Source: Sodaliphilus pleomorphus (lineage in GTDB: Bacteria > Bacteroidota > Bacteroidia > Bacteroidales > Muribaculaceae). Taken from it: DNA of 64,000 nt. The stretch covers positions 248,001 through 312,000 of the forward strand of contig NZ_CP045696.1 in assembly GCF_009676955.1 (NCBI RefSeq). Reading direction: 5' to 3'. The position numbers and the translations under genes are program-made. Position 1 is the first letter of the stretch, and every line of letters begins with the position of its first letter. Under the pieces are notes generated by a model. That model searched no databases, was not told the origin of the DNA, and saw only the letters and a list, made by a program, of their open reading frames with translations. Of the stretch, positions 16,345-56,175 are shown piece after piece.

Positions 16345-16347
16345 TGA

Positions 16348-18183
16348 TTATTTTAAAAGTTTAGCGTTGAAAGCCTTTAATGTTTCAAGCACATTGGTGC
16401 GCACGTTGATGAAATTGGTCACACCCATTGCCTTGAACTCGTCGGTCTCGGGACCGGCAAGCACAAACTCGGCACGGCCGTTGAGCGCCTTGAGTGCAGC
16501 GGGGATGAGCTCGGGATACTCGGCATCGCTCGAGCAAAGCACGATGATGTCGGCACCAGCCTTCACGCCAGCCTCGACACCTTCCTCAACAGTCTTGAAA
16601 CCGTTGTTGTTGACGAGCTTGTAGCCTGCGCAACCGAAGAAGTTGTCGCTGAACTGGGCGCGGGCCAACCGCATGGCCAGGTTGCCAATGGTGAGCATGA
16701 ACACAACAGGAGTCTTCTCGCTGGCCTCGGTGTGCTGGCGCAGGGTCTCAAAGCCACTGGCAAGACGCTTGGTGTTGAGCACGGGAGCGTCGGGATTGGC
16801 CTCGCCACAGCCACAGCTGCAAGCAGCATGGATGTCGCGATGGTCGCCACTCTTCTCGGTGAAGTTGGGGAACTGGTTGGTACCCAGCAGCTGCTCTTTG
16901 CGCTTAGCCACCTTGTCGAAACGAGTGTTGGCGCTGGCATTCACAGCCTTGGTCACGTCGAAGCTCTCGGCTGCAGCCTTAAAGCCGCCCTTGTCTTCTA
17001 CCTCGAGGAAGAGCTTCCATCCTGCCTGGGCAATAAACTGAGTGAGCTCCTCAACATAGTAGCTGCCGCCTGCCGGGTCGACCACCTTGTCGAGGTGAGA
17101 CTCCTCCTTGAGCAGCAATTGCTGGTTGCGAGCAATGCGAAGGCTGAAGTCGGTGGGCTCCTCATAAGGCGTGTTGAACGGAGTGACCGTGATCTCGTCG
17201 ACCGAAGCCAGTGCAGCCGACATCGATTGCGTCTGGCTGCGCAGCATGTTCACATAGGGGTCAAACAGCGTCTGGTTGAAGCGCGATGTAGCTGCGCTCA
17301 CAACCATTTTGCACGATTCGTCCTTGGCACCGTACTGCTTCACGATTTGGGCCCAAAGCATGCGTGCTGCACGGAACTTGGCCAGCTCCATGAAGTAGAC
17401 GGTGGAAATGTTCATGTTGAACTTGATGCGGCTTGCCACCTCATCGGCACTGAAGCCGGCGTCGGTGAGCTCGGCCAGGTATTCGTTGCCCCATGCCAAG
17501 GCATAACCAAGCTCTTGATAAATGAAGGCACCTGCATTGGCCAGCATGACCGAGTCGACACCCAGCACGCGCAGGCCGGCAACCGGTGCTGCGATCTTGA
17601 GCAACTGTGCAGCAGTCTCCTGGACACCTGCTTCAAATTTCTTGCCTTTCTTGAACACAGGCTTGAACGGGTTGAAGTCGATGCTGCCCACAAACTTGTC
17701 GGCAGTGCCTTTTTTCTGCAGATAGTCGACAAGAGCTGTGGCAAGCTCCACTGCCTTGCTTGGGCAGATGCTGAAATTGATCTCTACAGCATCGGTGTGA
17801 ATACCGTCGAGAAGCACATTCAGGTCAACAACGTTGTGATGCAGATTGAAACCCAGTGCGGTGACGCCCTTGTTGAGGATGTCGAGCACTTGCTTGTTGG
17901 TCTCGGCCACGTCCTTCACATCAAAGTCTTGACGCACCTGCCAGGTGTTGTTGGTACGGGTGCCACGCACATAGGGGAACTCGCCAGGAAGTGAATCGAT
18001 TGTTTTGAAGTCCTTGATGTCTTCGTCAAAATACAGAGGATTGACATTAAAGCCTTCATTAGTCCGCCAGATCATTTTCTTGTCGAAATCGGCACCCTTG
18101 AGGTCGATTTCAGCTTTGGCTCTCCAAGTCTTGAAGTCTACCGGAGAAAATGCTTCGAACAGTTTTTCTCTTTTTTCTGCCAT
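16348..18183 (-). CDS. mutA: Methylmalonyl-CoA mutase, small subunit
   Basis: The 611-residue partner of MutB has the same barrel-plus-flavodoxin-like layout. The C-terminal domain lacks the DxHxxG cobalamin motif, as expected for the non-catalytic subunit. Barrel motifs such as VVDPAGGSYYVEELT (about 350-365) are kept. It is the first gene of the mutAB operon. A consensus -7 element (TACCTTTG) sits about 85 bp upstream of the ATG. No accessory gene (meaB/argK, epimerase) is adjacent in this window. Confidence 0.95.
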   Translation of the reverse strand: MAEKREKLFEAFSPVDFKTWRAKAEIDLKGADFDKKMIWRTNEGFNVNPLYFDEDIKDFKTIDSLPGEFPYVRGTRTNNTWQVRQDFDVKDVAETNKQVLDILNKGVTALGFNLHHNVVDLNVLLDGIHTDAVEINFSICPSKAVELATALVDYLQKKGTADKFVGSIDFNPFKPVFKKGKKFEAGVQETAAQLLKIAAPVAGLRVLGVDSVMLANAGAFIYQELGYALAWGNEYLAELTDAGFSADEVASRIKFNMNISTVYFMELAKFRAARMLWAQIVKQYGAKDESCKMVVSAATSRFNQTLFDPYVNMLRSQTQSMSAALASVDEITVTPFNTPYEEPTDFSLRIARNQQLLLKEESHLDKVVDPAGGSYYVEELTQFIAQAGWKLFLEVEDKGGFKAAAESFDVTKAVNASANTRFDKVAKRKEQLLGTNQFPNFTEKSGDHRDIHAACSCGCGEANPDAPVLNTKRLASGFETLRQHTEASEKTPVVFMLTIGNLAMRLARAQFSDNFFGCAGYKLVNNNGFKTVEEGVEAGVKAGADIIVLCSSDAEYPELIPAALKALNGRAEFVLAGPETDEFKAMGVTNFINVRTNVLETLKAFNAKLLK

Positions 18184-40565: not shown

Positions 40566-42710
40566 CTACTTGAGAGTCTTGGATACGGTCTTGGTGCCAT
40601 CGGCGCGAGAAGAAACCACAATATTGAACCCATGGAATGGCGTGCTGGCCTGCTGGCCTGCGGCGTTGTAGTAAACAACGCTTGTCACTGCATTTGAAAC
40701 ATTCACATCGGCAACAGCGGTGGGCTCACCTGGCTTCTTGAACGCATAGATATTGCCCACGACGAAGGTCAGCGTGCCGTCACCGTTGGCAAAGCCGTCG
40801 CTTGCATCGGCATCGGCTACATGAGCGATAGTGCTCACATACTTGATTTGATAAAGCGACTTCATGTCGGTGCCGCGAGCAATAATGCTGTCGATGGGCA
40901 GGCTGATGTTGTTCCACTCACCTGCAACCAAGTTGCATTCAAAACCTTTCTCTGGTTGATTTCCACCCGTGGCTGCACTGTTGATGGGCACCACAGTGAG
41001 CCGGGCATTGGCTGCAGCATAAACATCGAAATGCAACGTGTCTTGTGTCGATACATCGACCGTGCCAAATTGAGAACCGTAATAAGTAAAGTTGCGAATC
41101 ACAAAGGCTTCGTCACCATTTATGTCGATTGCTTTGCCCGAGTTGTCCGAGCCTCCCCAGCTGTACCATCCATAGCCCTCAGCTGTGCCGAGTGCAGAGC
41201 CATAGATGGCGACATAAGATGTGGCTGCCGGCGTGGGCACACTGGGCATTGACGGCGTAGTCACGTTGAGTTTCACCGTGTCGGTGACATTCACCCCGTC
41301 GCTTGCCGTGATGCCAAGCGAATAGGCCGTGGCAGGCTCAAGTTGCAGCGTCTGCAACACCACTGCGCCACTGGCACCCGAAGCCGTCACATCGATACCA
41401 TGAGAACCATCAACGACATGATAGGTAATGGTAGAGGCCACATCGTCGGACGCCTTGAGATTGACAATAGCCGATAGCGGCGTCAATGCACCCAGCGTGG
41501 CAGTAAAGTCGGCAGGAGCATTGCTGTCGGCAATGGGCGTCTTGCCCGAGCCATAGACTCTGAACTCGATGATGGAAACGCCATAGTCGGTTGCAGGCGA
41601 CGTGCTGTTGAATTTCACATAGCGAACCTGGCTGTTGGACGCGGGGGCATAATAGTAGTAACGACCACCCTGGAAGCCCGAAAGTCCACTCACCGACTCT
41701 CCCGTTGCCCATACCTTGCCATCCTTGGAGAACTCGATGGTGAAAGCTGCCGGGTTGGCATTTTCAAAGTACAGCTCCATTGCATCGATATCATAGTAGG
41801 CAGCGAGATCGGCAATCACATAGGCAGGAGCCTCGCTCGAAACCGGTGTGCCGCTTGCCCACCGAGTGCCCTCGTTCTCATCAAAGGCCATTGTGGCAGT
41901 CAAGCCGTCGGCCTCTCCGCTTTTAGCACTCAGCTTGCCTTGAGCAAGATTAAGGCCTTCATAGGCATAGATGCGGGCGGTATCGGTTTTGTCGCCGAGT
42001 GTTGCAGCAATCACCGACAACCCCTTGGCCGAAGGGGTGAATGTCTTCCCGTCGGCACTCACGGTGCCTCCAGCCCCCGTGACAGTGAACTTGGCACCAC
42101 TGGTATCATATTCAAGCCCATCCTGGTCAAGAGCAGTCAAGGTCATTGGCACTGCCGAGCCCACGGCTGCAAGCCCGAGAGAGGCGTCATTCTTGCCAGG
42201 GGTTGCAGGGGCATAGGACAGGGTGGTGAGTGTTGACTGTGCCGAAGCTTCAAACACACGAAACTCCCAAAAACTATACCCATAGCCAGTGCCGCGTGCG
42301 GTGCCCACAAACTCAACGTAGCGATACTTCTTGTCGCCATCGAGTCTCAGCGTCTGAGTGTGAGGAAAATCAGAAAGCGACTGATCGGTGACAGTAGCAA
42401 TCGTGACGCCACCCGTAATGTAACCGTCATCACCCACATTGTCGCCTGCCACAATAGTGAATGACTTGCCATAGGCACCTTCCCACACAATCTGAATGGT
42501 GTTGAAAGTGAGGGGCTCGCCTAAGTCAACCTGCCACTTCTGCGGGTCCTTTCCGTGCTCCGATTCCCAACGCGTGCCCAGGTTGCCGTCGTTGCCTTGC
42601 GAGGCTGTGCCCGAACTGGCAATCGACGTCTTCCCTTCGGCCAGATTAGTCTGTGCCAGCATCGACCACGATGTCAATGCCAGGAGTAATAAAAGGAAAA
42701 CTTTTTTCAT
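40566..42710 (-). CDS. Secreted discoidin (F5/8 type C) multi-domain glycan-binding-type protein
   Basis: The 714-residue protein, last gene of the PUL, has a signal peptide ending SMLAQ (no lipobox). Two discoidin/CBM32-like domains are seen (about 20-160, starting NLAEGKTSIASSG; about 255-395, starting NLAQGKLSAKSGE), with a bacterial Ig-like segment between and a fibronectin-III-like segment after. Residues 496-663 are a copy of a module also found twice in the protein at 48523-50010 ('module B': FTYYGSQF, ANGDGTLTFVVGNIY). The end (VVYYNAAGQQAS...GFNIVVSS...DGTKTV) resembles a type IX secretion tail. No catalytic domain is visible, so binding of glucan or cell wall is inferred. Confidence 0.78.
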   Translation of the reverse strand: MKKVFLLLLLALTSWSMLAQTNLAEGKTSIASSGTASQGNDGNLGTRWESEHGKDPQKWQVDLGEPLTFNTIQIVWEGAYGKSFTIVAGDNVGDDGYITGGVTIATVTDQSLSDFPHTQTLRLDGDKKYRYVEFVGTARGTGYGYSFWEFRVFEASAQSTLTTLSYAPATPGKNDASLGLAAVGSAVPMTLTALDQDGLEYDTSGAKFTVTGAGGTVSADGKTFTPSAKGLSVIAATLGDKTDTARIYAYEGLNLAQGKLSAKSGEADGLTATMAFDENEGTRWASGTPVSSEAPAYVIADLAAYYDIDAMELYFENANPAAFTIEFSKDGKVWATGESVSGLSGFQGGRYYYYAPASNSQVRYVKFNSTSPATDYGVSIIEFRVYGSGKTPIADSNAPADFTATLGALTPLSAIVNLKASDDVASTITYHVVDGSHGIDVTASGASGAVVLQTLQLEPATAYSLGITASDGVNVTDTVKLNVTTPSMPSVPTPAATSYVAIYGSALGTAEGYGWYSWGGSDNSGKAIDINGDEAFVIRNFTYYGSQFGTVDVSTQDTLHFDVYAAANARLTVVPINSAATGGNQPEKGFECNLVAGEWNNISLPIDSIIARGTDMKSLYQIKYVSTIAHVADADASDGFANGDGTLTFVVGNIYAFKKPGEPTAVADVNVSNAVTSVVYYNAAGQQASTPFHGFNIVVSSRADGTKTVSKTLK

Positions 42711-42774: not shown

Positions 42775-44229
42775 CTACTTGCTCAAGATGATATTGATCA
42801 ACGCCGTCACATCGCTCACGTTGACCAAGCCGTCGTGGTTAAGGTCGCACAGCATGTCGTCGTAGGCTGCCGAGCCCAGTATCTTGTTGATAAGGGCAGT
42901 AACGTCGGTCACATTTACCTGGCCGTCGCCATTGATATCGCCGCCAGCATCGCTGTCGAATCTGAACCAGTTGAACTTGCAATTGGTGCTTTGGCCACTC
43001 ACAATGCGAATGCGCACGTGTCCTGCCGGGAGAGTAGCCTTCATGGTCTGGGTCTTCCATTTGCCCACACTGCCTGTGGCATCGAGCACTTGTTCGGCCA
43101 CCTTTTGTCCGTTGGCAAAAATGCGTATTTTGGGGCTGAACAAGAACTCCTCGCTCGCCAGTCGCAGCGAGAAGGTGTAGCTGCCGGCACGCGGCACGTC
43201 GACAAGATACTCGGCCCAGTTGTTGACATCAAAACTACCCACTTGTATCTTTTGGCTGCTTTGGGTGTCGGTATTCACCTCCAGGGTGGGACCTGTCGAG
43301 TTCACCCAATCCTTGGCAGCAATCACCGCTCCCGCAGGGTGAAAATAAGTAGTGTCGTAGGACGACATGTTGACATATACCTGCCCCAATTGCGAGAGCG
43401 TGCCCCATGCCGGCTGATGTGTGAGCAGGTTTTGATTCACCAGCAAGCGATAGTAAGGAGGAGTCTCGGTACCCTTGGCCTTGAACCACGCATAGCGGTA
43501 CACCATGGTGTCGAGCTCCAAATCCTGAACCTTCAGCACCATGGAATTGAGTTGGGAGACCGAGTCGACCGTACCCTCCCAAGAGCAGAACTCGGTGAGC
43601 CACACCTTCTTGCCGAAGGTGCGGGCAAAGTCGTCGATAAAATTCATCATCGCCGTGTGACTATTCATATAGCTGTGCAGGGCCACATAGTCCATGCGCG
43701 GTTCCTTGCCGTAGAGCTTCTTATAGGCCTCGACAAACTTCGACAGCCACTCTTTGGGTTGATAAGTGACGCCATCGTTGATGGGGCCATCGGGAAAGTT
43801 GAGCGCCGGAGCCACAAGTTGCAGGTTGTAGTCGCGAGCAATAGCCTCAAGGGCTGGCCAGCGCTGTGCTGCCTGCTCGGGGGTCATATTGGCCTGGGCC
43901 TTGAAGTTGGGCTCGTTGAAGCCCAGCAGATACCTGGTGCCTGGATACTTAGAGAGCGAGTCGCGCAACGCCTGCTCGCTGAAGCCGCCGTTCCAGCACA
44001 TGGGCACAAACTCCATAATGCCGCCTGGCCGCAACTGCGAGGCCACATATCGAGCTGGATTGGTGCCCCAGTTGTAGGTCCACGACACGCCTGGAGCCAG
44101 AGCCTCGACCTCGGGCGCATGATTGAGGCCGTTCTCTCCCACTCCGCGCTTGGCACTTTTCTTCATTTGCCCCCACGCAGCCGGAGCAACAGCAAGCAGG
44201 GCTAAAATACATATCAAAATTTTTTTCAT
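42775..44229 (-). CDS. GH128-like endo-beta-1,3-glucanase with CBM6-like and dockerin-like domains
   Basis: The 484-residue protein has a signal peptide ending AWGQ (residue 21). Residues 27-300 match the GH128 (Asl1-like) glycosidase fold: YNWG, LLGFNEPN with the acid/base E106, and VWLTEFCSW with the nucleophile E213. GH128 enzymes cleave beta-1,3-glucan. Residues about 330-430 resemble a CBM6-like beta-sandwich (NWAEYLVDVPRAGSYTFSLR). The last 55 residues hold two dockerin-like calcium loops (DINGDGQVNVTDVTALINKILG and a second DLNHDGLVNVSDV). There is no lipobox. It lies 16 bp after the GH16 gene in the PUL operon and fits its beta-1,3-glucan theme. Confidence 0.83.
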   Translation of the reverse strand: MKKILICILALLAVAPAAWGQMKKSAKRGVGENGLNHAPEVEALAPGVSWTYNWGTNPARYVASQLRPGGIMEFVPMCWNGGFSEQALRDSLSKYPGTRYLLGFNEPNFKAQANMTPEQAAQRWPALEAIARDYNLQLVAPALNFPDGPINDGVTYQPKEWLSKFVEAYKKLYGKEPRMDYVALHSYMNSHTAMMNFIDDFARTFGKKVWLTEFCSWEGTVDSVSQLNSMVLKVQDLELDTMVYRYAWFKAKGTETPPYYRLLVNQNLLTHQPAWGTLSQLGQVYVNMSSYDTTYFHPAGAVIAAKDWVNSTGPTLEVNTDTQSSQKIQVGSFDVNNWAEYLVDVPRAGSYTFSLRLASEEFLFSPKIRIFANGQKVAEQVLDATGSVGKWKTQTMKATLPAGHVRIRIVSGQSTNCKFNWFRFDSDAGGDINGDGQVNVTDVTALINKILGSAAYDDMLCDLNHDGLVNVSDVTALINIILSK

Positions 44230-44245
44230 CGTTGCAGCATTATAA

Positions 44246-45307
44246 TTATCGATTGAATACTTTCTTTACTTCATCTCCCGTTTTCACAATGTAAATACCC
44301 TGATTCATCTCGCTCACGATATTGCCAAGGGTGTCGTATATCACAACAGGCTTGTCGGTGGGTGTAGTTGCCACATTGTCGATGCCGGCTCCCCAACCAT
44401 CGGGGATGGAAGCAGTGGCAGCCAAGTCGTCGCTGTCCTGATACACCCTCACCCAGTCGATATACATCTTGGCCTCGCCTTGTGCCAGGGCGGTAATGCC
44501 GGTCGAGCTCGTAATGCCCGTGAAATTACCCCCTACTGCAAGGTCATAGACAATGAAAAACTCATGTTGAAAGTAGTGTCCAGTTCCCCAGTCATTGCTG
44601 TAGTCGCTCACTCCCATTTTGTAATAGGGCTGCGCATCGGGATACTTGTCCTGGTCGAGATACATGCTCACATAGTCATCGTCCCACTCCAGGGTGAAGG
44701 TGTGAAACTCTCCGTCCTGCAAACTGTAATCACTGGTCGTGCTGCGGGCATAGTTGGGATACTGCCCCTGGCTGTTGTAGTAGCCCCAGTGGCAGGCACC
44801 GTTGAAAAAACTATCCTGAGTATTGTGTTTGATACCCTCGGCGTTTCCCATCTCCACGATATCGATCTCGCCACAACGGGGCCACCCCACCGAGCCAAAA
44901 TCATTGCCGAGCATCCAGAAGGCCGGCCACAGGCCATTGGCCGTGCTTGGCAACTTGATGCGACTCACAATCTTGCCATGCTTGAAGCAAGCCTTGCCGG
45001 CAGTATTCAATCGGCCCGAAGTGAACGCCTTGCCGTTATAGCTTTCCTTTTTAGCTGTGAGCACCAGGCAAACCGCTCCCGAGGCTGAATCGGTCTCAAA
45101 CGATATGTTTTGTCGGCGATAATATTGGAGTTCGTTATTTCCTCCGCCGTCGCCGTTTTCCTCAATGTTCCAAGCCTTTTCATCGAGCGCATTGTTGTTA
45201 AACTCATCGCTCCACACAAGTTTGTAATTGTGCTGTGCAACTGCATTGATCGAAATGCCAGCGATTGCAATCACAGCCAAAACTGACATGCTATAATAGT
45301 TGTTCAT
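44246..45307 (-). CDS. GH16 endo-beta-1,3(4)-glucanase (laminarinase-like)
   Basis: The 353-residue protein has a signal peptide ending NAVAQ (residue 25). The GH16 catalytic domain (about 27-290) shows LVWSDEF, NNELQYY, and GLWPAFWMLGND; the active site is E147-I-D149-I-V-E152, with E147 as nucleophile and E152 as acid/base. The residue spacing ExDxxE without an extra Met is typical of bacterial beta-glucanases of this clan. The last 45 residues (VVIYDTLGNIV...GIYIVKTGDEVKKV) resemble a type A type IX secretion sorting domain. Its ATG touches the stop of the preceding GH16 gene with no gap. Confidence 0.9.
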   Translation of the reverse strand: MNNYYSMSVLAVIAIAGISINAVAQHNYKLVWSDEFNNNALDEKAWNIEENGDGGGNNELQYYRRQNISFETDSASGAVCLVLTAKKESYNGKAFTSGRLNTAGKACFKHGKIVSRIKLPSTANGLWPAFWMLGNDFGSVGWPRCGEIDIVEMGNAEGIKHNTQDSFFNGACHWGYYNSQGQYPNYARSTTSDYSLQDGEFHTFTLEWDDDYVSMYLDQDKYPDAQPYYKMGVSDYSNDWGTGHYFQHEFFIVYDLAVGGNFTGITSSTGITALAQGEAKMYIDWVRVYQDSDDLAATASIPDGWGAGIDNVATTPTDKPVVIYDTLGNIVSEMNQGIYIVKTGDEVKKVFNR

Positions 45308-48300
45308 CTACTTATTATTGTTTAGAATAATGTTGATAATTACATCAATATCAGATACGTTTACTTTTCCATCTCCATTGATGTCGGTGTTGTCGTGAGT
45401 CTCGGTGCCAAGTATCACTCCCACCAGGGCAGTAACGTCGCTCACGTCGACATCGCCATCGGCGTCGACATCGCCCACGAGCGATTGCGAGGCTTTTTTG
45501 TAGAAAAACACCGCATCAAAATTGAGCGGTGTGCCCGAGACCCCGCCACTGAGCAACGACACCACATTGCCCAGGTAGCTGGTCGATCCAGGAAATACTG
45601 GATTGGCCCGAGAAGCAATCTCACTGAAGGGTATATCGAAGTTGTACCACTCGCCATCGCGATAGAAATCGCCAAGCAGGCTATAGACCGTTCCATTGTC
45701 GTTAAATGCCGTAGCACCAAGCGAAAAATGAGCATTGCCCACCCCTACGGCATGGGTGGCGTGGGTTGTGGAGTCGGCTGACTTGAAAGCCAGGTGCAGG
45801 TAGTAGTCGTTGTCAAGCATGCTCAAGTCCTTGCCTGTGCCTTGCGATGCAAAGCCAAGACCCGACCAGCCTGCCGAGCCCACGGTAAAGGCCAGGTAAG
45901 GCTCATCGTTGCCAAAAGAGTTCACTCCCGTTGCAGTTGCTGCATTATAAGTATTTTCCCACACATAGAGGAAGTTGCGCGTGTCGTCAGGACGGTAGTC
46001 GGCCACCGTTGCAGCCTTAATCTGGGTGGCCTCGGCGTCGCCAAGATAAAGCAGCACGTAGTCCTTACCCTTGCTCAAGTCGAATGTGGGCTTGCCATCG
46101 CGATCGAGCGACTTAGAGCCATAGAGTCCCAGCACGTTGTCGGTCGTGTCGACCTTGCCATCGTCGCTGTGCTTCTTGTAGAAAAATATGTTGTCGAATT
46201 GCAGTTGCGCCCCTTGGGCGCCGCCACTCAGGAAAGAAACGACATTGCCCGTATAGGCCTTGACACCGCCATCGGCAGTGAACGGGTCGCCATAGAGACT
46301 TTTGATCACTCGGTAAGGAATATCGAAGTAGTACCATTCACCGTCGCGCTTGTAATCGCCCAAGACAGTGGTGCCCGTAGAACTATTCCCAATCACAAAT
46401 TGTGCTGCACCCACGCCCACAGTGTGGCACGCATGCCGCACGATGTCGTTGCCCTTCATGGCAAAGTGCAGATAATAGCTGTTGTCGAGCATGCTCAAGT
46501 CTTTGCCCTTATGTCCTGTAGAGGCAAAGCCCATGCCCGACCAGCCTACAGTGCCCACGGTGAAGCTCTGATAGGCTTCCTGAAAGCCAAACGAATTGAC
46601 GCCTGTCGAAGTGAGTGCATTGTAGGTTTTTTCCCATATCCACAGGAAATTGTCGGTATCGTCGACATTGTAGTTGGCTTTGATCTTGCCGGTCATGGCA
46701 TCGGTCACGCCAGTACTGGTGCCGATGAGCACATAGTCATAGCCGTCGTCGAAGTCAAACGTCGTGGCCCCATTAGCATCGAGGGCCTTGCTGGCATACT
46801 TACCAATTACAGTAGTGGTGTCGGTCGTAGGCAGCGAGGTATTGACGCTGTCGTTGCGATAGAAAAACACGTTGTCAAATTGCAACTGCGCACCCGCCGA
46901 GCCGCCGCTCAAGAAAGCAAACACATTGCCAAGATAACTTGACGAATCGGTGAACAACTTGCCCGACAAACTCTTGAGCACGCTCACAGGAATATCAAAG
47001 GAGCACCAGCGGCCATCACGCTTGAAGTCGCCCAACACAGGGGCTGCACTGCCGTTGTCGACAAAGGCGGTACTGCCAATCGTAAACTTGGCATTGCCCA
47101 CAATCACCTCGTGGCTGGTGTGCACGAGATTGTCGGTACCACGCATGGCAAAGTGCAGGATGTAGCTGTCGTCGATCATGCTCAAGTCCTTGCCTTTGCC
47201 AGTCGAGGCATATCCGAGTCCCGACCATCCAACATTGGCTACTGTGAATACAGGATAAGACTCTTGATAGCCAAAAGAATTGATGCCGGTACTCGTGCCG
47301 GCATTGTAGGTTTTCTCCCAAATGTAAAGAAAATTGTTAACGTTGTCAACATTGTAGTCAGCCTTGATCTTGCCTTGCATTTGTGCTTTGACACCATCGC
47401 TCACCCCGATGAGCACGTAGTCTTTGGAGTGGGCGAAATCAAAAGTGGGAGTTCCGTCATCGTTGAGCGAAATCGAGCCGTAGGCACCCAGAGAGGTGAC
47501 ATTGTCGGCAGTCGAAGGCTTGTCGCTGCCAGCCTCGCCATCGGGGGTGATGTAGTTTTGTGAGTCCTCACGCTGATACACACGCACATAGTCAACAGCC
47601 ATTTCTTGATTGCCGCTATTGAGGGCAGTGACACCGCTTGCATCGTAGATGCCTGTGGCACTGCCGCCTACAGCCAAGTTAAAGAGCAAGAAGAAACGCT
47701 TGTGGAAATACCTGCCTGCCGAGTTGACTTGCGCTGTGTCGTTGATGTTCATCTTGAAATAAGGTGTCTCGTCGGGGTGCTTGTCGAGGTCGACATACAT
47801 GCTCACTGCATCATCGTCCCACACCATGGTGTAGATGTGGTAATTGCCGTCTTCGATAGTATAGTTGGTAGTCGACTGGCTATACATGGGATGATTGCCA
47901 TTGGTGTAAGGCCCCCAGTGCATAGCTGCATTGAAAAACTTGTCTTGCGTCGCTGTCTCGATGCCCTTGGCACCGCCAGCCTCGAGCACGTCGATCTCGC
48001 CGCAATAGGGCCAGCTCATGCCATCGGCCATGTCGTTGCCCATGAGCCAGAATGCAGGCCACAGGCCGTTGGCCGTCTTGGGCAACTTGATGCGGGCCTC
48101 AACCTTGCCATGCTTGAAAGCCACCTTTCCCATCGAGTTGATGCGGCCCGAGGTGAACGATTTGGAGCCATACGATTCTTTCTTGGCAGTAATCACAAGG
48201 TTGCCGCCAGTCACCTTCACATTGCCTGGCAAGTAATATTGCAGCTCGTTGTTACCCCCGCCATTACCGTTACTCTCCACATTCCACACCTTGGTATTGA

Positions 48301-48421
48301 GCGTAGTTCCGTCAAACTCGTCGCTCCACACCAGCTTGTAGTCGCTTGCTGCAGCACGCGATATTGCCGTTGCCGATGCTGCAAGCAACACAAATGTCGA
48401 TAACTTGAATATCGTCTTCAT
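45308..48421 (-). CDS. Large GH16 enzyme with three copies of an unfamiliar module and a dockerin-like end
   Basis: Start set at 48421 (MKTIFKLSTFVLLAASATA, signal peptide), not at the in-frame ATG at 48490, which gives no signal peptide. The product has 1037 residues. The GH16 domain (about 27-290) has GEIDVLE with E142, D144 and E147. Three tandem repeats of about 210 residues follow (about 308-523, 535-752, 761-978), each with WEKTYNA or WENTYNA, GxNSFG, GWSGxGxAS, KDLSMxD, FDIP and LSGGxxGxxLxFDxxFFY. Residues 983-1034 are two dockerin-like loops (DVDADGDVDVSDV; DINGDGKVNVSDI). The repeat is also the main part of the protein at 50060-50956; a glucan-binding role is inferred. Confidence 0.87.
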   Translation of the reverse strand: MKTIFKLSTFVLLAASATAISRAAASDYKLVWSDEFDGTTLNTKVWNVESNGNGGGNNELQYYLPGNVKVTGGNLVITAKKESYGSKSFTSGRINSMGKVAFKHGKVEARIKLPKTANGLWPAFWLMGNDMADGMSWPYCGEIDVLEAGGAKGIETATQDKFFNAAMHWGPYTNGNHPMYSQSTTNYTIEDGNYHIYTMVWDDDAVSMYVDLDKHPDETPYFKMNINDTAQVNSAGRYFHKRFFLLFNLAVGGSATGIYDASGVTALNSGNQEMAVDYVRVYQREDSQNYITPDGEAGSDKPSTADNVTSLGAYGSISLNDDGTPTFDFAHSKDYVLIGVSDGVKAQMQGKIKADYNVDNVNNFLYIWEKTYNAGTSTGINSFGYQESYPVFTVANVGWSGLGYASTGKGKDLSMIDDSYILHFAMRGTDNLVHTSHEVIVGNAKFTIGSTAFVDNGSAAPVLGDFKRDGRWCSFDIPVSVLKSLSGKLFTDSSSYLGNVFAFLSGGSAGAQLQFDNVFFYRNDSVNTSLPTTDTTTVIGKYASKALDANGATTFDFDDGYDYVLIGTSTGVTDAMTGKIKANYNVDDTDNFLWIWEKTYNALTSTGVNSFGFQEAYQSFTVGTVGWSGMGFASTGHKGKDLSMLDNSYYLHFAMKGNDIVRHACHTVGVGAAQFVIGNSSTGTTVLGDYKRDGEWYYFDIPYRVIKSLYGDPFTADGGVKAYTGNVVSFLSGGAQGAQLQFDNIFFYKKHSDDGKVDTTDNVLGLYGSKSLDRDGKPTFDLSKGKDYVLLYLGDAEATQIKAATVADYRPDDTRNFLYVWENTYNAATATGVNSFGNDEPYLAFTVGSAGWSGLGFASQGTGKDLSMLDNDYYLHLAFKSADSTTHATHAVGVGNAHFSLGATAFNDNGTVYSLLGDFYRDGEWYNFDIPFSEIASRANPVFPGSTSYLGNVVSLLSGGVSGTPLNFDAVFFYKKASQSLVGDVDADGDVDVSDVTALVGVILGTETHDNTDINGDGKVNVSDIDVIINIILNNNK
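45320..45475 (-). repeat. Dockerin-like doublet of the large GH16 protein
   Basis: Codes for residues 983-1034. Two 12-residue loops of the D-x-D/N-x-D-G-x-V-x-V-S-D form are each followed by a hydrophobic helix (TALVGVILG; VIINIILNN), as in type I dockerins. Equivalent doublets end the GH128-like protein and the protein at 50060-50956. Confidence 0.75.
45488..46141 (-). repeat. Module A, third copy in the large GH16 protein
   Basis: Codes for residues about 761-978. It shares WENTYNA, GVNSFG, GWSGLGFAS, KDLSMLD and GEWYNFDIP with the other copies. Confidence 0.8.
46166..46819 (-). repeat. Module A, second copy in the large GH16 protein
   Basis: Codes for residues about 535-752, with WEKTYNA, GVNSFG, GWSGMGFAS, KDLSMLD, GEWYYFDIP and LSGGAQGAQLQFDNIFFY. 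Confidence 0.8.
46853..47500 (-). repeat. Module A, first copy in the large GH16 protein
   Basis: Codes for residues about 308-523, with WEKTYNA, GINSFG, GWSGLGYAS, KDLSMID and LSGGSAGAQLQFDNVFFY. Confidence 0.8.
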
Positions 48422-48522
48422 GAAAAAGTCGATGAAATAGGATAGAATAAAAAAAGGAGAAGCCCCCAAAAGGGACTCCCCCCTTTTCACGCAATAATAA
48501 TTAGTTTTTTAATTTGAGGAAA

Positions 48523-50010
48523 TTATCTGTTGATATATTTCTTGCCGTTTTTAACGACTATGCCCTTGTAGTCGCTCGACACTTGCTGACCAGCGACATT
48601 GAAGGCCGGGCCATCGACAACGGGCTGAGCCACATTGACGCCATTCACGCCTGTCGACACCTCGTTGTAGAAATACACGTTGCCCACTATGAAACTTTGA
48701 GTGCCGTCACCGGTGCCAAAGCCGTCGACATTGCCGTCGCCGCCATCGGCAGCCAGGGTGCCCATATACTTGATTTGATACAGATTGGCCATGTTGCAGC
48801 CCTTCTGCACATAGGTGGCCACAGGCACCTCAAGCGTGTTCCACTCGTTGGCCTTGAGCGAGAATTGTACGCCCTTCTCGATTGTGCCAGTGATGGGAAT
48901 AATAGTGAGGGTCATGTCTTGCAAAGGAAGCACATCGATGTGCAGCTTTTTCCAGCTCGTGACATCGATAGCGGTAAACTCACTGCCAAAATAAGCAAAC
49001 TTGCTGATCATGTAGCCTACTTTGCCATTGATGTTGATGGCAGCACCAGTGCCTCCACCCCAAGGATTGAAGAAATAGCCGTCGGTGTTGCCAGTGTAGG
49101 GCGAGAACACACTCTTGAGCTCGTTGGCCACAGGCTGAGGAATGTCGGGGAGCGACTGGGTGGTGACCTCAAGGGTCTTGGCCTCGCTCACGTTGCCCTT
49201 CTCATCGGCAGCCTTCACGGTGAGCGTGTATTGAGTGCCAGCATTCAGGCCAGTGATATTGAGGCTTGTAGCCTCGCCCGACTTGCCAGTCACCTTGTAG
49301 GTTGTGCCATTCTGGTCGGTCACAGTGTAGTATATGCTTTCGCTCTTGTTGTCGGTAGCCGTGAGCGATAGCGTGGCGCTTGCATAGCTCACACTTGCCA
49401 CCGTTGCACTGGTAATGACAGGAGCCTCGGTATCCTCATAGCTCACAGCCTCCTTGTAGCAATACACATTGCCCACATAGAAAGTCTTGGTGCCATCACC
49501 GTTGCCAAAACCGTCGACATTGCCGTCGCCATTGTCGACAACTGTGCTCGTATACTTGATTTGGTACATGTTGGTCATGTTGCAGCCCTTCTTGGTGAAA
49601 GTTTCAACAGGAATCTTTATCGTGTTCCACTTGCCGCCAGTCACAGCACTCTGCACGCCTTTCTCCACAGTGCCGGTAATCGGCACGATGGCGAGCGTCA
49701 TGTCGGTCTCAGGAAAAACATCGACTACAAGATATTTCATCTTGGTCACATCGAGGGCAGTGAACTGAGAACCATAGTAGGTGAAATTGGGAATTTTAAA
49801 TACCTTGGCATCGCCTACAGCGATTTCTGACCCCACGTTGCCACATTGCCAATCGGCGAAGAAATATCCATCGGTGTTTCCAAGTGCCGAAGAGTAAATA
49901 CCAATAGCATCGTTGCCCGTAGCAAGAGGCGCAGGCACTGTTGTGGGCTGTGCCCACGCAGCAACACCGGCCAATACCAGTGCAACTGCCGAAAACATTA
50001 GTCTTTTCAT
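48523..50010 (-). CDS. Secreted two-module glycan-binding-type protein with a Fn3-like middle
   Basis: The 495-residue protein has a signal peptide ending AWAQ (residue 21) without a lipobox. Two similar modules ('module B') lie at about 26-187 and 291-449, each with GNTDGYFF, F-x-YFGS/YYGSQF-TA-DV, KGCNM-N-YQIKY and GNGDGT-x-x-VGNVY. A fibronectin-III-like domain (about 193-285) separates them. The tail (PAFNVAGQQV...KGIVVKNGKKYI) looks like a type IX secretion sorting signal. No catalytic motif is seen. Its place right after the SGBP-like gene of a beta-glucan PUL suggests a second surface or secreted glucan-binding protein. A third copy of the module is in the protein at 40566-42710. Confidence 0.75.
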   Translation of the reverse strand: MKRLMFSAVALVLAGVAAWAQPTTVPAPLATGNDAIGIYSSALGNTDGYFFADWQCGNVGSEIAVGDAKVFKIPNFTYYGSQFTALDVTKMKYLVVDVFPETDMTLAIVPITGTVEKGVQSAVTGGKWNTIKIPVETFTKKGCNMTNMYQIKYTSTVVDNGDGNVDGFGNGDGTKTFYVGNVYCYKEAVSYEDTEAPVITSATVASVSYASATLSLTATDNKSESIYYTVTDQNGTTYKVTGKSGEATSLNITGLNAGTQYTLTVKAADEKGNVSEAKTLEVTTQSLPDIPQPVANELKSVFSPYTGNTDGYFFNPWGGGTGAAININGKVGYMISKFAYFGSEFTAIDVTSWKKLHIDVLPLQDMTLTIIPITGTIEKGVQFSLKANEWNTLEVPVATYVQKGCNMANLYQIKYMGTLAADGGDGNVDGFGTGDGTQSFIVGNVYFYNEVSTGVNGVNVAQPVVDGPAFNVAGQQVSSDYKGIVVKNGKKYINR

Positions 50011-50059
50011 AATAAATGAAGTTTAGTTTATGTAAAAACAATATGTGTGTGTGTGATAA

Positions 50060-50956
50060 TTAGTTTTTTGACAAAATCATGTTGACCAGAGTGGTCGCAT
50101 CGGTCACATTTACAGTGCCGTTGCCATCAAGGTCAGCCCGTGACACGAAACTTGAATCAGACACTGTGCCCAAGATGATGTTGACCAACACCGTAACATC
50201 GGTAACGTTGACCTGGCCGTCGCCATTCACATCGCCCTTGGCAAAGGATGGGGTGAGCGTACTGCTCTTGTAGATGAAAATATTGTCGAGATGAAGCTCA
50301 ACGCCTTGAGTGCCGCCACTCAGTGCCCAGAAGTAGTTGCTCTTGTAGGCCTTTTGCCCGCCGTTGGCAGTCGTCCAGGGATTCATGATTTTTTTCAAGA
50401 CCGAAATCGGAACATCGACATAATACCACTCACCGTCGTTTTTCCAAGTACCCAGGTTCTTGACTGTTGTGCCATTGTCGACAAAAGCATTGTCGCCAAG
50501 GGCAAACTTAGCGTCGCAAAAACCGATGCACTGAGCATTGGCAGGATTGCCCTTGATGGCGAAGTGCAGCACATAGGTATCGTCGAGGTCGCTGAAGTCG
50601 ACAGGCGTGTCGCTAGTGATGCCCATGCCCGACCAGCCCACATTGGACACAGTGAGAGCCAGGTGGTCCTCGAGCTGGCCAAATGAGTTCATGCCGCTGC
50701 CGTCGCCAGCATTATAGGTCTTCTCCCACACCCACAGGTGCTTCACCTGGTCGTCGACACGCAAATCGGCTTTGATACCCTTGGTTTTCATCGCCTCATA
50801 CTCGGCATCGCCCACCATGATAGGCATGAAATTGGAAGCCTTGCTCCAGTCAAAAGTAGGCTCGCCCTGCTCGTTGAGGGCTTTGGCAACGGTCTGGGCT
50901 TTGGCACCCATTGCTGCCATGGCAAGAATTGCCAAACATAGAGTAAATTTTTTCAT
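50060..50956 (-). CDS. Stand-alone module A protein with dockerin-like end (surface glycan-binding candidate)
   Basis: The 298-residue protein has a signal peptide ending GAKAQ (residue 21), without a lipobox. Residues 22-232 are one copy of module A, with WEKTYNAG, GMNSFG, GWSGMG, GEWYYVDVP and LSGGTQGVELHLDNIFIY. Residues 241-296 carry two dockerin-like loops (DVNGDGQVNVTDV; DLDGNGTVNVTDA). The gene comes directly after susD, the position usually taken by a surface glycan-binding protein. A binding role is therefore likely, but an ordinary SGBP would be a lipoprotein. No homology to a named carbohydrate-binding family is recognised by eye. Confidence 0.75.
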   Translation of the reverse strand: MKKFTLCLAILAMAAMGAKAQTVAKALNEQGEPTFDWSKASNFMPIMVGDAEYEAMKTKGIKADLRVDDQVKHLWVWEKTYNAGDGSGMNSFGQLEDHLALTVSNVGWSGMGITSDTPVDFSDLDDTYVLHFAIKGNPANAQCIGFCDAKFALGDNAFVDNGTTVKNLGTWKNDGEWYYVDVPISVLKKIMNPWTTANGGQKAYKSNYFWALSGGTQGVELHLDNIFIYKSSTLTPSFAKGDVNGDGQVNVTDVTVLVNIILGTVSDSSFVSRADLDGNGTVNVTDATTLVNMILSKN

Positions 50957-51074: not shown

Positions 51075-52703
51075 TCAATAATTAGGATTCTGTGTAATCC
51101 CTGTGAGGTCGATTTCCTTGGAAGGTATAGGGAACAACTCGCACTTGCCCTTGGTGAAGCTGCCCCATTGGGCTTTGGCTTCTTCCGACTCGCCAGCGAT
51201 ATAGTTGTCCATCGTCTCCTTGGCAATGCCCCAGCGCACCAAGTCAAACCACCGGTGCCCCTCCATGGCAAGTTCGACGCGGCGTTCGTGGCGAATGGCG
51301 GCGCGCAAGTCGGCCTGGGTGTCGGCATAGGTCACCGTCTTGCCCTGTATGATCGAAGTGTAGGGGAAACTCTTGAGCCCGACCCGGGCACGCACACTGT
51401 TGAGTGCCGACCGGGCCTGGCCCAGGTCGCCGAGCTCGCAACAGGCCTCGGCATACATGAGTAGCACGTCGCTGTAACGTATCTGCTTGTTGTTGAGCGG
51501 GCCACGTGAGTCGTGTGTCAAATGATAGCAGCTGCCGTTGTCCTCGGTATACATGGCATACTTGCGATTGAGCAAGCTGTCGCCCGTGTAAATCTCTTGC
51601 GCAGGAGTCTCCATTTGCCCGTAGGCCGGGCGTAAAATGGTGGAGTCGCGGCGTGGGTCGCCAGGTTCAAACTCGTTGTAAAGATTCTCGGTGGGCTTGT
51701 CGAAGCCCCAACCGGCCTGGCCCCAGAAGCTGGAGCGCGATCGCTGCAAGATGAGTGTGAATGTGCCGCGGGTAAAGCCCTCACCCTCGCCATAGTCGCT
51801 GGTCGGGTCCTCCACATATTGTATTTCAAATACCGACTCGGCATCGTTTTCACCTGCAAGGGTGAAATTGGTGAAGAAATTCTTGTCGAGGCTGTACTGG
51901 CCGCTTGCCATGATAGAGTCGCCCCAGGCTTTGGCAAGCTGAAACTTGGCCTGAGCACCGTTCACATCGTTATTGTTCTCGAGATAGTCGGCATAGTAAA
52001 GGTTGGCTTTAAGCAACATGGCTTGGGCAGCACCCTTGGTGGCACGGCCCAAATCGCTGGGCGAGTACTTGCTCTTGAGCCACAACTGACGGTTGGCCTG
52101 TTGCAGGTCGCGCACGATGAAGTCGAAGGTTTCGGCAACCGAAGCGCGGTGCTGCGCCCATTTCGAACTGCTGTCGATGACCTCCTCGATGAGAGGCATG
52201 CCGCCATAAAGCCGCAGCAGCCTGAAATAATAGAAAGCACGCATGAAGTGGGCCTCGCCTTCAAGTCGGTCGGCCTCAAGCAGGTCGGCAGCCTTGGTGA
52301 GGTCGCCTTTCTTCTTTGCAATCTCGTCGAGAGCCAGGTTGCAACGCGCTATGCCTTGCCATTGTGCACGGTAATACTCGAGCACAATTTCGTTGTTGGT
52401 GTTTACCTTAAAATTGTCGATGTCGTAGGCATCGCCGCCATCGGAGATGCCCTGGCCGCCCTTGAGTGCGTCGTCGCTGGCGATGTCGCCGAAGAACCAC
52501 TCAGAGTAATAAGTATCACCGTATTCCCAAGCCAGGGGCACATAGCAGGCATTGGTCACGTTTTCCAGAGTCGATATCGAGGTGAAATACTCATCACGAT
52601 TGTTGGTGCCTGGAGTGTCGTCGGTGAGCCAGTCATTGCACGACGTCATTCCCACCGCAAGAGCTGCTACCACAGCCATATTGATATATTGTTTAAGTCT
52701 CAT
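51075..52703 (-). CDS. susD: SusD/RagB-family nutrient-binding lipoprotein
   Basis: The 542-residue lipoprotein has a lipobox (MTSC, C22) and the SusD-type N-terminus (DTPGTNNRDEYFTSISTLENVTNACY). Helical TPR-like units (MRAFYYFRLLRLYGGMPLI) are followed by the C-terminal stretch IRYSDVLLMYAEACCELGD, LNSVRARVG and ELAMEGHRWFDLVRWG, all hallmarks of the family. SusD caps the SusC barrel and captures oligosaccharides at the cell surface. It begins 49 bp after susC. It is the only lipidated product of the eight-gene PUL. Confidence 0.96.
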   Translation of the reverse strand: MRLKQYINMAVVAALAVGMTSCNDWLTDDTPGTNNRDEYFTSISTLENVTNACYVPLAWEYGDTYYSEWFFGDIASDDALKGGQGISDGGDAYDIDNFKVNTNNEIVLEYYRAQWQGIARCNLALDEIAKKKGDLTKAADLLEADRLEGEAHFMRAFYYFRLLRLYGGMPLIEEVIDSSSKWAQHRASVAETFDFIVRDLQQANRQLWLKSKYSPSDLGRATKGAAQAMLLKANLYYADYLENNNDVNGAQAKFQLAKAWGDSIMASGQYSLDKNFFTNFTLAGENDAESVFEIQYVEDPTSDYGEGEGFTRGTFTLILQRSRSSFWGQAGWGFDKPTENLYNEFEPGDPRRDSTILRPAYGQMETPAQEIYTGDSLLNRKYAMYTEDNGSCYHLTHDSRGPLNNKQIRYSDVLLMYAEACCELGDLGQARSALNSVRARVGLKSFPYTSIIQGKTVTYADTQADLRAAIRHERRVELAMEGHRWFDLVRWGIAKETMDNYIAGESEEAKAQWGSFTKGKCELFPIPSKEIDLTGITQNPNY

Positions 52704-52752: not shown

Positions 52753-55700
52753 TTAAAAACTCAAATTAAGTCCCATCAAGTAGGTGCGAGCCTGGGGATA
52801 GTTTCCATAGTCGACACCGCCTGCCACCTCGGGGTCATAGCCACTGTAGTCGGTAATGGTGAACAGATTGCTGGCTTGCAGGTACACCCGCAGCGTCTTG
52901 AGCCCAAGCGGCTTTATCAATCGGTCGGGGAAGTTGTAGCCCAGCTGAATGTTCTTGAGCCTCAAGTAGGACCCGCTCTCAATGAAACGATCGCTGTTGT
53001 AGAAGTTGATCGAGTGCTTGGGATTGGGGATGCCGGCCTGGGCATAGTCGGTGACGCGATAGTCGCGCGAGTCGGCATTTTCCCAGCTCCACACCTTGAG
53101 CATGTCGCTACTCAAGTTGCTCTCGGTGCCAGTGCCATAAAGGCGCTCGTTGAGTGCGTTGTATATCTTGTTGCCCGCCACACCCTGGAAGAAAAGCTGG
53201 AGGTCGATATTCTTCCAGCTGGCGCTCAAGTTGAGGCCATAGCTCACTTTGGGGAAATTGTTGCCCAGCTTAGTTTTGTCGTTGTCGTCGATCACGCCAT
53301 CGTGATTGATGTCTTCATATATGGCATCACCGGTGCCATAAGGATTGGCTTGTCCGCTCTTGGCATAACCAGGCAGGGCGGCATCGGCATCGGCCTGAGA
53401 GGCAAAGACACCCTTGTACTTGTAGCCCCAGAAGGTGAACAACGGGAGGCCCTCGTCGCTCATCACGCGGTCGCCATACACAGGTGCACCGCCATTGAGT
53501 GCTGTCAACTCATTTTTGATAAACGACATGTTGCCATCGATGCCATAGGTAAAGTCGCCCAAAGTGTTGTGATGACCGAGAGTGATTTCAACGCCCGAGT
53601 TACGCACGGTGCCCACATTGGCTTGTGCATCATAGCGGTTGCCCACCCATGCCGGACCTTTGACATAAAGCAGCATGTCCTTGGTGTTGCGAATGAATCC
53701 CTCGACCGTGAAGCTCAACTTGCCATTCCACAATGCGGCATCGATGCCGGCATTCCAAGTCTCGGTGCGCTCCCACTTGCCACCCTGGTTCACATAGGTG
53801 AGTATTGTAGCGCCATTGGCAATAGTCCCGTTGAACGGGTATCCCACAAAGGTGGGCCCCGAGGTGAAGATGGTCTGGTTGAAGGCATCGTTGCCAATCT
53901 TGTCATTGCCAATCTGCCCCCAGCCGGCACGTAGCTTCAAGTAGTCGAGTGCAGCCCACTTGCCTTTGAGCCACGGCTCCTCGCTCACACGCCAGGCTGC
54001 TGCCAGCGACGGGAAGTAGCCCCAAGTGTTTTCGGGGAACTTGTTGCTGCCGTCGGCACGGAAGTTGAATGTGAACATGTAGCGGTCGAGCAGCGTGTAG
54101 TGGGCACGCCCCAGGAATGACAGGCGACGGGTGCGGCTCACGCCATCGCCAGCCTTGTTGGTGTTGTCGAGAGTCGTTTGGTTCAGGTACCAATTCTTTT
54201 CATCGGGATTGAGGATGCCACTGCCCGAGTTGCCAATACTGTAGTAGTTGTACTCCTCGGTAGTTTGGCCAACCATGAGGTTGAAGCTGTGTATCTTGTT
54301 GATATCAAACACATAGTTCACAATATTTTCCCAAGTGAACGTGGAATAGTGAGAAAGAGACCGCTCAAGGAAGTTATTTTCCAGGTAATCTTTCACACTC
54401 ACGTCGTGTGCGTCCTTGAAAAGACGGTATTTAAGATTCACCTCGTCGTAGCTGGCATCGGTGCGATAGGAGAAGCCCTTAAACGGGGTGAACTCCAGGT
54501 AAATGTCGCCAATCCAGCGACTGGTGCGGCTCTTGGGGTGCGATGTGTAGACCATGCTGAAGGGATTGGTGGCATTCTTGAAGTTGGAGGGTGCAGCATA
54601 GCGGCCACCCATGTCGGCACCGTTCACGTTCACTGCATTTTCGGGATAGTAAGCCAAGTCCCAGGGGGCCATTGCAATGGCAGCCGAGATGACCGAGGCG
54701 TTGGCCGACGAACTGTTGTTCATTGCGGTGCGCCCCATGCTGTACACGTAGGACAGATTCTCGCCTATCTTCAACCACGGCTTCAACTGGCAGGATGTAT
54801 TGGCACGCAGCGTGAAGCGCTCGTAATTGGAACCTATGATAGTTCCCTCTTGGTTAAAGTAGCTGGCACTCATTGAGTAGCTGGTCTTGTCGCCACCGCC
54901 GTCAAACGACACATGATAGTTCTGAATGGGAGCATTGCTCTTGAACACTTCGTCTTGCCAATCGGTGTTGACGACGCTGTAGTCAAGGCCTTGGATGCCA
55001 TAATCGATGCCCTTGCGGGTGTAGCCGTCGATCTTGGCTATGGCAAAGTGCGGGTCGTTGCCCAGCTTGTAGGTCTGCAGCCAGCGGTTGAAGCCATATT
55101 TGTTATAGAAAGTCTGTTCACTCTTGGCAGCGTTTATGGCCTCATAGGTGTTGAAGAAATCGGAGCTGTTCATGAGCTTGAGCTTCTTCCAGCGGCTTTG
55201 AAAGCCATAGTACATATCGAGCGAGATGGTTGAGACCCCCTTCTCGCCTTTTTTGGTAGTGATCAAAACCACGCCGTTGGCGCCGCGGCTGCCGTAGATG
55301 GCCGTAGCCGAAGCGTCTTTCAGTATCTCGGTCGACTCGATGTCGTTGGGGCTCAAGAACGAGATATTGTCGGTAATCACACCATCAACTACATAAATGG
55401 GGGCAGAGTTGTTGACTGTGCCAATGCCGCGAATGCGCACCTCGGCGGCCTGGCCCGGCTGTCCCGACGAGGCATTGACCGTGACACCAGCCGCGCGTCC
55501 CTGCAGAGCCTGGTCTACACTGGCTGCGGGTGTCTTTTTCAAGTCTTTGGCACTTATAGTAGCAACCGAACCCGTAAGGTCACTTTTTTTCATCGAGCCG
55601 TATCCGATGACGACAACCTCGTCGAGCTGGTTGACATCGTCGCTCATCTCGACATTGAGGGTTGTAGTCGACGAGAACGGCCTCGTCTCATTTTTACAGC

Positions 55701-55917
55701 CTATAAATGAGTACTCCAGTGCACCAGGCTTTTTGGCCGAAATGATATAGTGGCCATCGGCGTCGGTCACTGTTAGAATATTGGTTCCAGCAATTCTAAC
55801 TGTAACGCCAATCATGGGTTGATGATCGGACGACGAGATCACGGTTCCCTGAATCTTGATTTGAGCTGCCGCAACAATGGGTAGCAACAGCAACAATAAT
55901 GATAGCTTAAATTTCAT
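52753..55917 (-). CDS. susC: SusC/RagA-family TonB-dependent transporter
   Basis: The 1054-residue outer-membrane protein imports oligosaccharides with TonB energy. It has a signal peptide ending AAAQ, a carboxypeptidase-regulatory-like beta domain (GTVISSSDHQPMIGVTV, residues about 24-95), a TonB-box-like and plug region (EVVVIGYGSMKKSDLTGSV; QALQGRAAGV; IRGIGTVNNSAPIYVVDGV), and a long barrel ending YLMGLNLSF. Length is usual for SusC. It is the first gene of the PUL and is divergent from the regulator. A promoter-like pair lies 42-73 bp upstream of the ATG. Confidence 0.97.
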   Translation of the reverse strand: MKFKLSLLLLLLPIVAAAQIKIQGTVISSSDHQPMIGVTVRIAGTNILTVTDADGHYIISAKKPGALEYSFIGCKNETRPFSSTTTLNVEMSDDVNQLDEVVVIGYGSMKKSDLTGSVATISAKDLKKTPAASVDQALQGRAAGVTVNASSGQPGQAAEVRIRGIGTVNNSAPIYVVDGVITDNISFLSPNDIESTEILKDASATAIYGSRGANGVVLITTKKGEKGVSTISLDMYYGFQSRWKKLKLMNSSDFFNTYEAINAAKSEQTFYNKYGFNRWLQTYKLGNDPHFAIAKIDGYTRKGIDYGIQGLDYSVVNTDWQDEVFKSNAPIQNYHVSFDGGGDKTSYSMSASYFNQEGTIIGSNYERFTLRANTSCQLKPWLKIGENLSYVYSMGRTAMNNSSSANASVISAAIAMAPWDLAYYPENAVNVNGADMGGRYAAPSNFKNATNPFSMVYTSHPKSRTSRWIGDIYLEFTPFKGFSYRTDASYDEVNLKYRLFKDAHDVSVKDYLENNFLERSLSHYSTFTWENIVNYVFDINKIHSFNLMVGQTTEEYNYYSIGNSGSGILNPDEKNWYLNQTTLDNTNKAGDGVSRTRRLSFLGRAHYTLLDRYMFTFNFRADGSNKFPENTWGYFPSLAAAWRVSEEPWLKGKWAALDYLKLRAGWGQIGNDKIGNDAFNQTIFTSGPTFVGYPFNGTIANGATILTYVNQGGKWERTETWNAGIDAALWNGKLSFTVEGFIRNTKDMLLYVKGPAWVGNRYDAQANVGTVRNSGVEITLGHHNTLGDFTYGIDGNMSFIKNELTALNGGAPVYGDRVMSDEGLPLFTFWGYKYKGVFASQADADAALPGYAKSGQANPYGTGDAIYEDINHDGVIDDNDKTKLGNNFPKVSYGLNLSASWKNIDLQLFFQGVAGNKIYNALNERLYGTGTESNLSSDMLKVWSWENADSRDYRVTDYAQAGIPNPKHSINFYNSDRFIESGSYLRLKNIQLGYNFPDRLIKPLGLKTLRVYLQASNLFTITDYSGYDPEVAGGVDYGNYPQARTYLMGLNLSF

Positions 55918-55990: not shown

Positions 55991-56143
55991 GAAAACACGG
56001 AACAAAAAATACACCAAAAACTCACTTTTTTCATTTTACGACATGCAACAACTCGTCTTTTTGTATTGACTATAAGGTTATTATACAGCAATTGCAAGAA
56101 TTAAAAAACCACACACAACAGGGAATGTTTAAAATAAATTTTT

Positions 56144-56151
56144 TACCTTTG
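56144..56151 (+). promoter_or_regulatory. -7 element of the PUL regulator gene
   Basis: TACCTTTG matches TAnnTTTG, 24 bp before the ATG at 56176. It shows that an in-frame ATG at 56092 lies upstream of transcription and is not the start. Confidence 0.55.
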
Positions 56152-56175
56152 CAACAGCTCAACAACATTGGCCCG

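Follow-up and report, generated by a model that had tools for sequence, protein, structure and literature searches.

Among the known systems that lie closest to this subject are proteins of the SGBP-B type, which occupy the SusE position and bind glucan in Bacteroides; those of its beta-1,3-glucan utilisation loci (1,3GULs), BuSGBP-B, BfSGBP-B and BtSGBP-B, are encoded directly after SusD (PMC7157763). We analysed a stretch of 64,000 nucleotides (the window; bases 248001-312000 of the 3.34-Mb single-contig genome of Sodaliphilus pleomorphus), in which a beta-glucan polysaccharide utilisation locus (PUL) carries a module of about 210 residues four times: three copies in tandem behind a glycoside hydrolase family 16 (GH16) domain, and copy A in a 298-amino-acid (aa) protein with the same gene position as the SGBP-B proteins. 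With a probability of roughly 0.72, we consider the module to be a non-catalytic carbohydrate-binding module (CBM), unnamed in Pfam, that belongs remotely to the CBM11/CBM30/ExoP_C/XBD jelly-roll superfamily and binds beta-1,3-glucan chains. Computed here are the four copies, their predicted fold and remote homology, their conserved genomic company, and a swap of the triplet between catalytic domains of two families.

The four-copy observation is confirmed. In a motif scan, WExTYNA, GxNSFG, GWSGxG, DxxYxLHxA and LSGGxxGxxLxxDxxFxY each turned up in a single place in the 298-aa protein and in three places in the 1060-aa GH16 frame, and GEWYxxDxP was present in three copies, with RWCSFDIP in the first GH16 copy, just as originally predicted. 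Copy A is 43-46% identical to the GH16 copies, which are 54-62% identical among themselves, and 56 alignment columns are identical across all four. Using the 298-aa protein as query, the GH16 copies were matched at E 2.8e-57 (over a stretch that takes in the dockerin as well), 4.8e-49 and 6.3e-47, far beyond chance, and a four-copy profile found these four copies and no fifth place in the whole genome at E<=0.001. Two details of the original prediction need adjusting: its span of 45488-50890 does hold the four copies and also takes in a separate gene (48523-50010) that lacks the module and carries two of another, and the copy said to form nearly all of the SusD-adjacent protein fills residues 22-232, followed by a C-terminal dockerin_1 domain (240-295).

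No named family claims the window copies. The module region of the 298-aa and GH16 proteins had no Pfam or NCBIfam match at E<=1, copy A scanned alone had none in Pfam at E<=1 or in NCBIfam at E<=0.1, and sequence and profile searches of the PDB sequences returned no confident relative over the module; a "new family" is thus one that is new relative to Pfam-A, NCBIfam and the PDB sequences, rather than to the CAZy/dbCAN profiles. A literature search, with most subscription papers outside its reach, found no description of the module in titles or the opening lines of abstracts. The accessible parts of two papers, on the C-terminal glucan-binding domain (~150 residues) of a Vibrio GH17 enzyme (PMC9026390) and on glucan-binding domains from phage display (PMC10076258), describe no GH16- or SusE-linked module like this one. 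The earlier failure to match a named CBM therefore holds for the window copies, whereas their wider family has remote kin among CBM30-like domains, ExoP_C and the SGBP-B xyloglucan-binding domain (XBD), and probably CBM11 as well.

Three alignments were used: a full-length one (A1, 48 rows), a four-row module alignment (A2) for finding loci, and a module-only alignment (A3, 52 rows). Weak Pfam matches among the A3 rows were to SGBP_B_XBD (6), ExoP_C (4), CBM30 (2) and CBM11 (1); the remaining ones, each a single match, were to seemingly unrelated families. The module is predicted to share the jelly-roll fold of CBM30 (PF21582; PDB 2c24, 1wmx, 1wzx), yet copy A and the whole GH16 protein had no match to it at E<=1, the gathering cut-off was not reached, the better of the two matching rows stood at 3.1e-4 (21.2 of 27 bits), and the solved structures are 16-21% identical to the module; the comparison set itself includes weak CBM30 members (best 41.5 bits; L097 below cut-off). 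For ExoP_C (PF18559; the C-terminal domain of the exo-1,3/1,4-beta-glucanase ExoP, 3ut0/3f95), the window copies had no match and identity was 10%, while one very divergent three-module relative passed the cut-off (30.2 vs 26.1 bits). SGBP_B_XBD (PF18329) gave 84% over 57 columns in hhalign; its six weak row matches reached E 6.7e-4 at best, two scores against this family (17.6 and 20.2) lay below the cut-off of 26.4 bits, copy A did not match, and the module profile touched one of 15 XBD loci (4.8e-4). CBM11 (PF03425; 1v0a, 6r31) had no match to the window copies at E<=1, and its single row, at E 0.046, is not significant. The best PDB profile matches were CBM30 for A1 (E 0.074) and CBM11 for A3 (E 0.021), both sub-threshold and not taken as proof. 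A match of "GWSG" in A1 to the N-terminal part of CBM30 was judged to be chance because this stretch is mid-domain in the module and near the start in CBM30. A catalytic role was dropped, as no glycoside hydrolase profile covers the module.

The AlphaFold model of copy A supplied the predicted fold and secondary structure, and in fold comparison it resembles CBM30-like domains and CBM11. For conservation, 503 module instances, the best among the matches listed and therefore leaning to close kin, were reduced to 56 clusters at 60% identity. Numbered on the 298-aa protein, W108, H131 and W177 are present in 56/56 clusters, W77 and D224 in 55/56 each, and an aromatic residue (Y or W) at position 75 in 54/56; A3 shows no variation at W77, W108, W177 and D224 and keeps H131 in >=90% of rows. 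Along the modelled strands, W75 with W77, H131, W177 with D181, and W108 with G110 and G112 alternate with hydrophobic residues, which suggests an aromatic face floored by glycines. The putative binding site would consist of the outward-facing W77, Y/W75, W108, H131 and W177.

The same kinship bears on which glucan is bound. A CBM mainly for mixed-linkage beta-1,3/1,4-glucan or cellulose-like chains would agree with the resemblance of the module, in fold and by remote homology, to CBM30-like domains and CBM11, with the CBM11 structures 6r31 and 6r3m, whose titles name a mixed-linked tetrasaccharide, and with the GH16 of the B. uniformis PUL, which also cuts mixed-linkage glucan (PMC7157763). 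We regard this as unlikely, on the ground that the PUL here also encodes a GH128-type enzyme with CBM6, whose closest PDB match, 8j3x, aligned over both domains, and that the module triplet is found on GH128 too. GH128 acts on beta-1,3-glucan. A curdlan-specific GH128-CBM6 enzyme has been described (PMC10956234).

Genomic company points in the direction of beta-1,3-glucanases as well. In samples of 393 genomes from the order and 394 from the phylum, the four-row profile found the module in 19 and two, respectively (this genome included in both, the other phylum match being weak and partial); within the genus, 7/24 genomes had matches better than 1e-20. Leaving this genome aside, 18 of the order sample carry the module; 14 of them have GH16 or GH128 in the module's own frame or no more than 1.5 kb away, and 10 have SusD at up to 1.5 kb, compared with 0/15 and 6/15, respectively, for 15 control loci of the SGBP-B XBD with the same flank. 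Among 31 named loci, GH16 or GH128 is present in 29 and SusC or SusD in 11; the search for them used A2, in which the GH16 protein supplies three of the four rows, so this sample leans to GH16. The loci are labelled Prevotella, Prevotellaceae, Muribaculaceae, Porphyromonadaceae, Bacteroidaceae, Paludibacteraceae, Labilibacter and unplaced Bacteroidales or Bacteroidia; eight have titles naming a rumen, omasum or rectum sample, and eight more are RUG bins, which we take to be from rumen.

A search with the GH16 tail matched at least 412 proteins at E<=0.001; among the best 120, 116 carry PF03935 (GH16-type), two GH128 and two neither. In a set of 255 module proteins, 117 join GH16 to three modules, eight join GH16 to two, two join GH128 to three, and 128 have neither domain (126 with a single module, two with three). 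The pattern ExDx(x)E with I, L or V at the second position is matched by 113 of the 125 GH16-module proteins, and the three inspected among the 12 misses have M there. Three copies behind GH16 agree with the definition of a CBM as a discrete non-catalytic domain appended to a carbohydrate-active enzyme, and the 298-aa protein, like an SGBP-B, is encoded directly downstream of SusD. Two further architectures are a 1170-aa Bacteroidales protein (L064:9239-12748), which has one module near residues 255-452 but lacks any Pfam domain at E<=0.001, and a 531-aa protein (P0098) in which the module precedes a SusF_N match (29.2 vs 28 bits), a SusF_SusE match below the cut-off and a dockerin, and which may link the module to proteins of the SusE/SusF type.

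The two GH128 fusions (P0222 and P0271) carry the whole triplet, and the GH16 and GH128 catalytic folds are unrelated. Five of their six modules were placed in a tree, one having been collapsed at 65% identity, and each of the five fell in a starred set whose GH16 members share its copy number; by BLAST, all six were nearest to the same-numbered GH16 copy. This suggests that the triplet was exchanged as a unit between the two catalytic folds, the behaviour expected of a portable substrate-binding tail. An assembly chimera was set aside because the two proteins form separate clusters (18 and 1 member sequences) and are 62-76% identical to the nearest GH16 copies. We do not claim strict position-specific descent, since none of copies 1, 2 and 3 forms a strict clade: on a tree with unsettled bootstrap they take 4, 6 and 6 changes, respectively, where shuffling gave means of 10.6, 10.5 and 14.1. 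The fusions also bear on a very improbable alternative, that the module serves to attach both the enzyme and the protein in the SusE position to the SusC/SusD complex by protein-protein docking: its presence on both proteins of one operon would suit such a role, but the predicted fold is that of glycan-binding modules, and glycan binding more easily explains three copies on the enzyme and their attachment to GH128.

Several observations weigh against a beta-1,3-glucan CBM. No GH16 or GH128 was nearby in four of the 18 order-sample genomes (G543, G032, G564, G731) or in two of the 31 named loci. Foldseek at E<=0.001 also returned chains that clearly have no relation to the module (from a xylanase, microtubule proteins and a receptor), so that fold similarity is weak evidence alone, and the conserved tryptophans could partly be core residues, their orientation being read from strand alternation and not from coordinates. 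The SusD homologue is closest to 9sje and 9sjj, with the laminarin-binding Gramella SusD (6gcz; PMC11351036) ranking lower, and its best solved relatives do not fix the substrate of the PUL. GH16 enzymes and some SGBP-B proteins of such PULs also take mixed-linkage glucan. Finally, the paired PF13004 domains of the GH16 in the B. uniformis beta-1,3-glucan PUL, when tested, showed no binding to the glucans of that PUL (PMC7157763), and position behind GH16 is thus no proof of binding. This tested precedent keeps alive the idea of a structural spacer that holds the catalytic domain off the cell surface and binds no glycan, a role we think quite improbable given that it leaves unexplained the single copy making up most of the SusE-position protein, the three tryptophans and one histidine nearly invariant over 56 clusters, and the GH16/GH128 company kept in most of the other genomes.

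Taking these points together, the original prediction of a new beta-1,3-glucan-binding family stands in part: the module is unnamed in Pfam and NCBIfam, and fold, company and tail exchange point to a CBM working with beta-1,3-glucanases. The module is real and common yet familiar in kind, representing a probable new CBM family within a superfamily already known. Binding, beta-1,3 specificity and avidity from three copies are what we infer. By analogy with SGBP-B, the SusE-position protein would bind glucan, capturing beta-1,3-glucan at the cell surface; GH16 and GH128 would cut it while their modules hold it, the three copies behind GH16 (or GH128) would keep the endo-glucanase on its substrate, and SusC/SusD would import the pieces.

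BuSGBP-B has a lipoprotein signal (PMC7157763), whereas the 298-aa protein has an ordinary signal peptide by eye, no lipobox, and a dockerin instead. The signal peptide of the GH16 protein, also by eye, begins at the ATG at 48421, and both proteins are probably exported. Forty single-module frames among those listed (own genome and overlapping loci included) comprise nine with a lipobox by pattern, after one pattern match was removed by eye, and seven with a dockerin; two further frames (L029, L031) have a Pfam type IX secretion system (T9SS) sorting domain, and several more seem by eye to have tails of a similar sort. The whole genome has 36 dockerin_1 matches, for example at 50072-50239, at 45323-45475 and in the GH128 gene, has no match to the cohesin family PF00963, and carries a homologue of the T9SS protein SprA. 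By eye, dockerins occupy the place where sister proteins have T9SS-like tails. They may here serve a role other than cellulosome docking; Bacteroidetes Bin49 likewise has 11 dockerins and no cohesin (PMC6071333).

The PUL lies on the minus strand, with a divergent probable regulator (Table 1). The GH16 domain of the triple-module protein has 5nbo, 7kr6 and 4crq as its best PDB matches, and we call it laminarinase-like because of these neighbours. A second unnamed module occurs in two further genes, and its second copy in the 495-aa protein has a CBM11-like fold. The regulator has weak, below-cut-off Reg_prop (propeller) and HTH matches and no Pfam histidine kinase domain at E<=1, and in this it differs from a hybrid two-component system. 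PADLOC gave no matches. Elsewhere in the window (14206-18183), two adjoining methylmalonyl-CoA mutase genes, one with a B12-binding domain, fit propionate metabolism and are ordinary.

Table 1. Features of the beta-glucan PUL, in window positions
Feature	Position	Strand	Basis or remark
Probable PUL regulator, Y_Y_Y domain	56092..59082	+	Pfam
SusC homologue (TonB-dependent transporter)	52753..55917	-	Pfam
SusD homologue	51075..52703	-	Pfam; lipobox by eye
298-aa protein, directly after SusD	50060-50956	-	
Module copy A (residues 22-232 of 298-aa protein)	50261..50893	-	Alignment, profile, AlphaFold model
Type I dockerin (dockerin_1), C-terminus of 298-aa protein, residues 240-295	50072..50239	-	
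495-aa neighbour: two copies of second unnamed module and one Fn3	48523..50010	-	
GH16-module x3-dockerin frame, 1060 aa	45308..48490	-	Likely start ATG at 48421
GH16 catalytic domain, laminarinase-like, GEIDVLE active-site motif	47561..48346	-	Pfam, PDB matches, sequence
Module copy 1 behind GH16	46853..47488	-	Alignment, four-copy profile
Module copy 2 behind GH16	46172..46798	-	Alignment, four-copy profile
Module copy 3 behind GH16	45494..46129	-	Alignment, four-copy profile
Type I dockerin, C-terminus of GH16 protein	45323..45475	-	PF00404 E 1.2e-05
Second GH16 enzyme	44246..45307	-	Pfam; no accessory module seen by Pfam
GH128-type (Glyco_hydro_cc) domain, CBM6 and dockerin	42775..44229	-	Pfam
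F5/8 type C domain protein with one copy of second module (residues 489-668)	40566..42710	-	Pfam, motif/sequence comparison

A bolder proposal, which we hold tentatively and at less than even odds, is that the module founds a new beta-1,3-glucan CBM family and that the three-copy tail works as one cassette. On this view each copy would largely have kept its positional identity since the triplication, and the tail would have been swapped whole between GH16 and GH128 catalytic domains; such a history hints at three matched sites suited to beta-1,3-glucan in long, aggregated or multi-strand form, for example callose or the glucan of fungal walls. If true, and counting the three copies of the second, CBM11-like module, the PUL would use, in addition to CBM6, seven modules that fall into two kinds without a name.

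The blank in Pfam and NCBIfam leaves about 600 residues of these GH16 proteins unannotated, and naming the module would help to mark beta-glucan PULs by sequence. The module is also a new candidate glucan-binding reagent, and the swap of its triplet between GH16 and GH128 offers a natural system in which to study the effect of tandem CBMs on an endo-glucanase.
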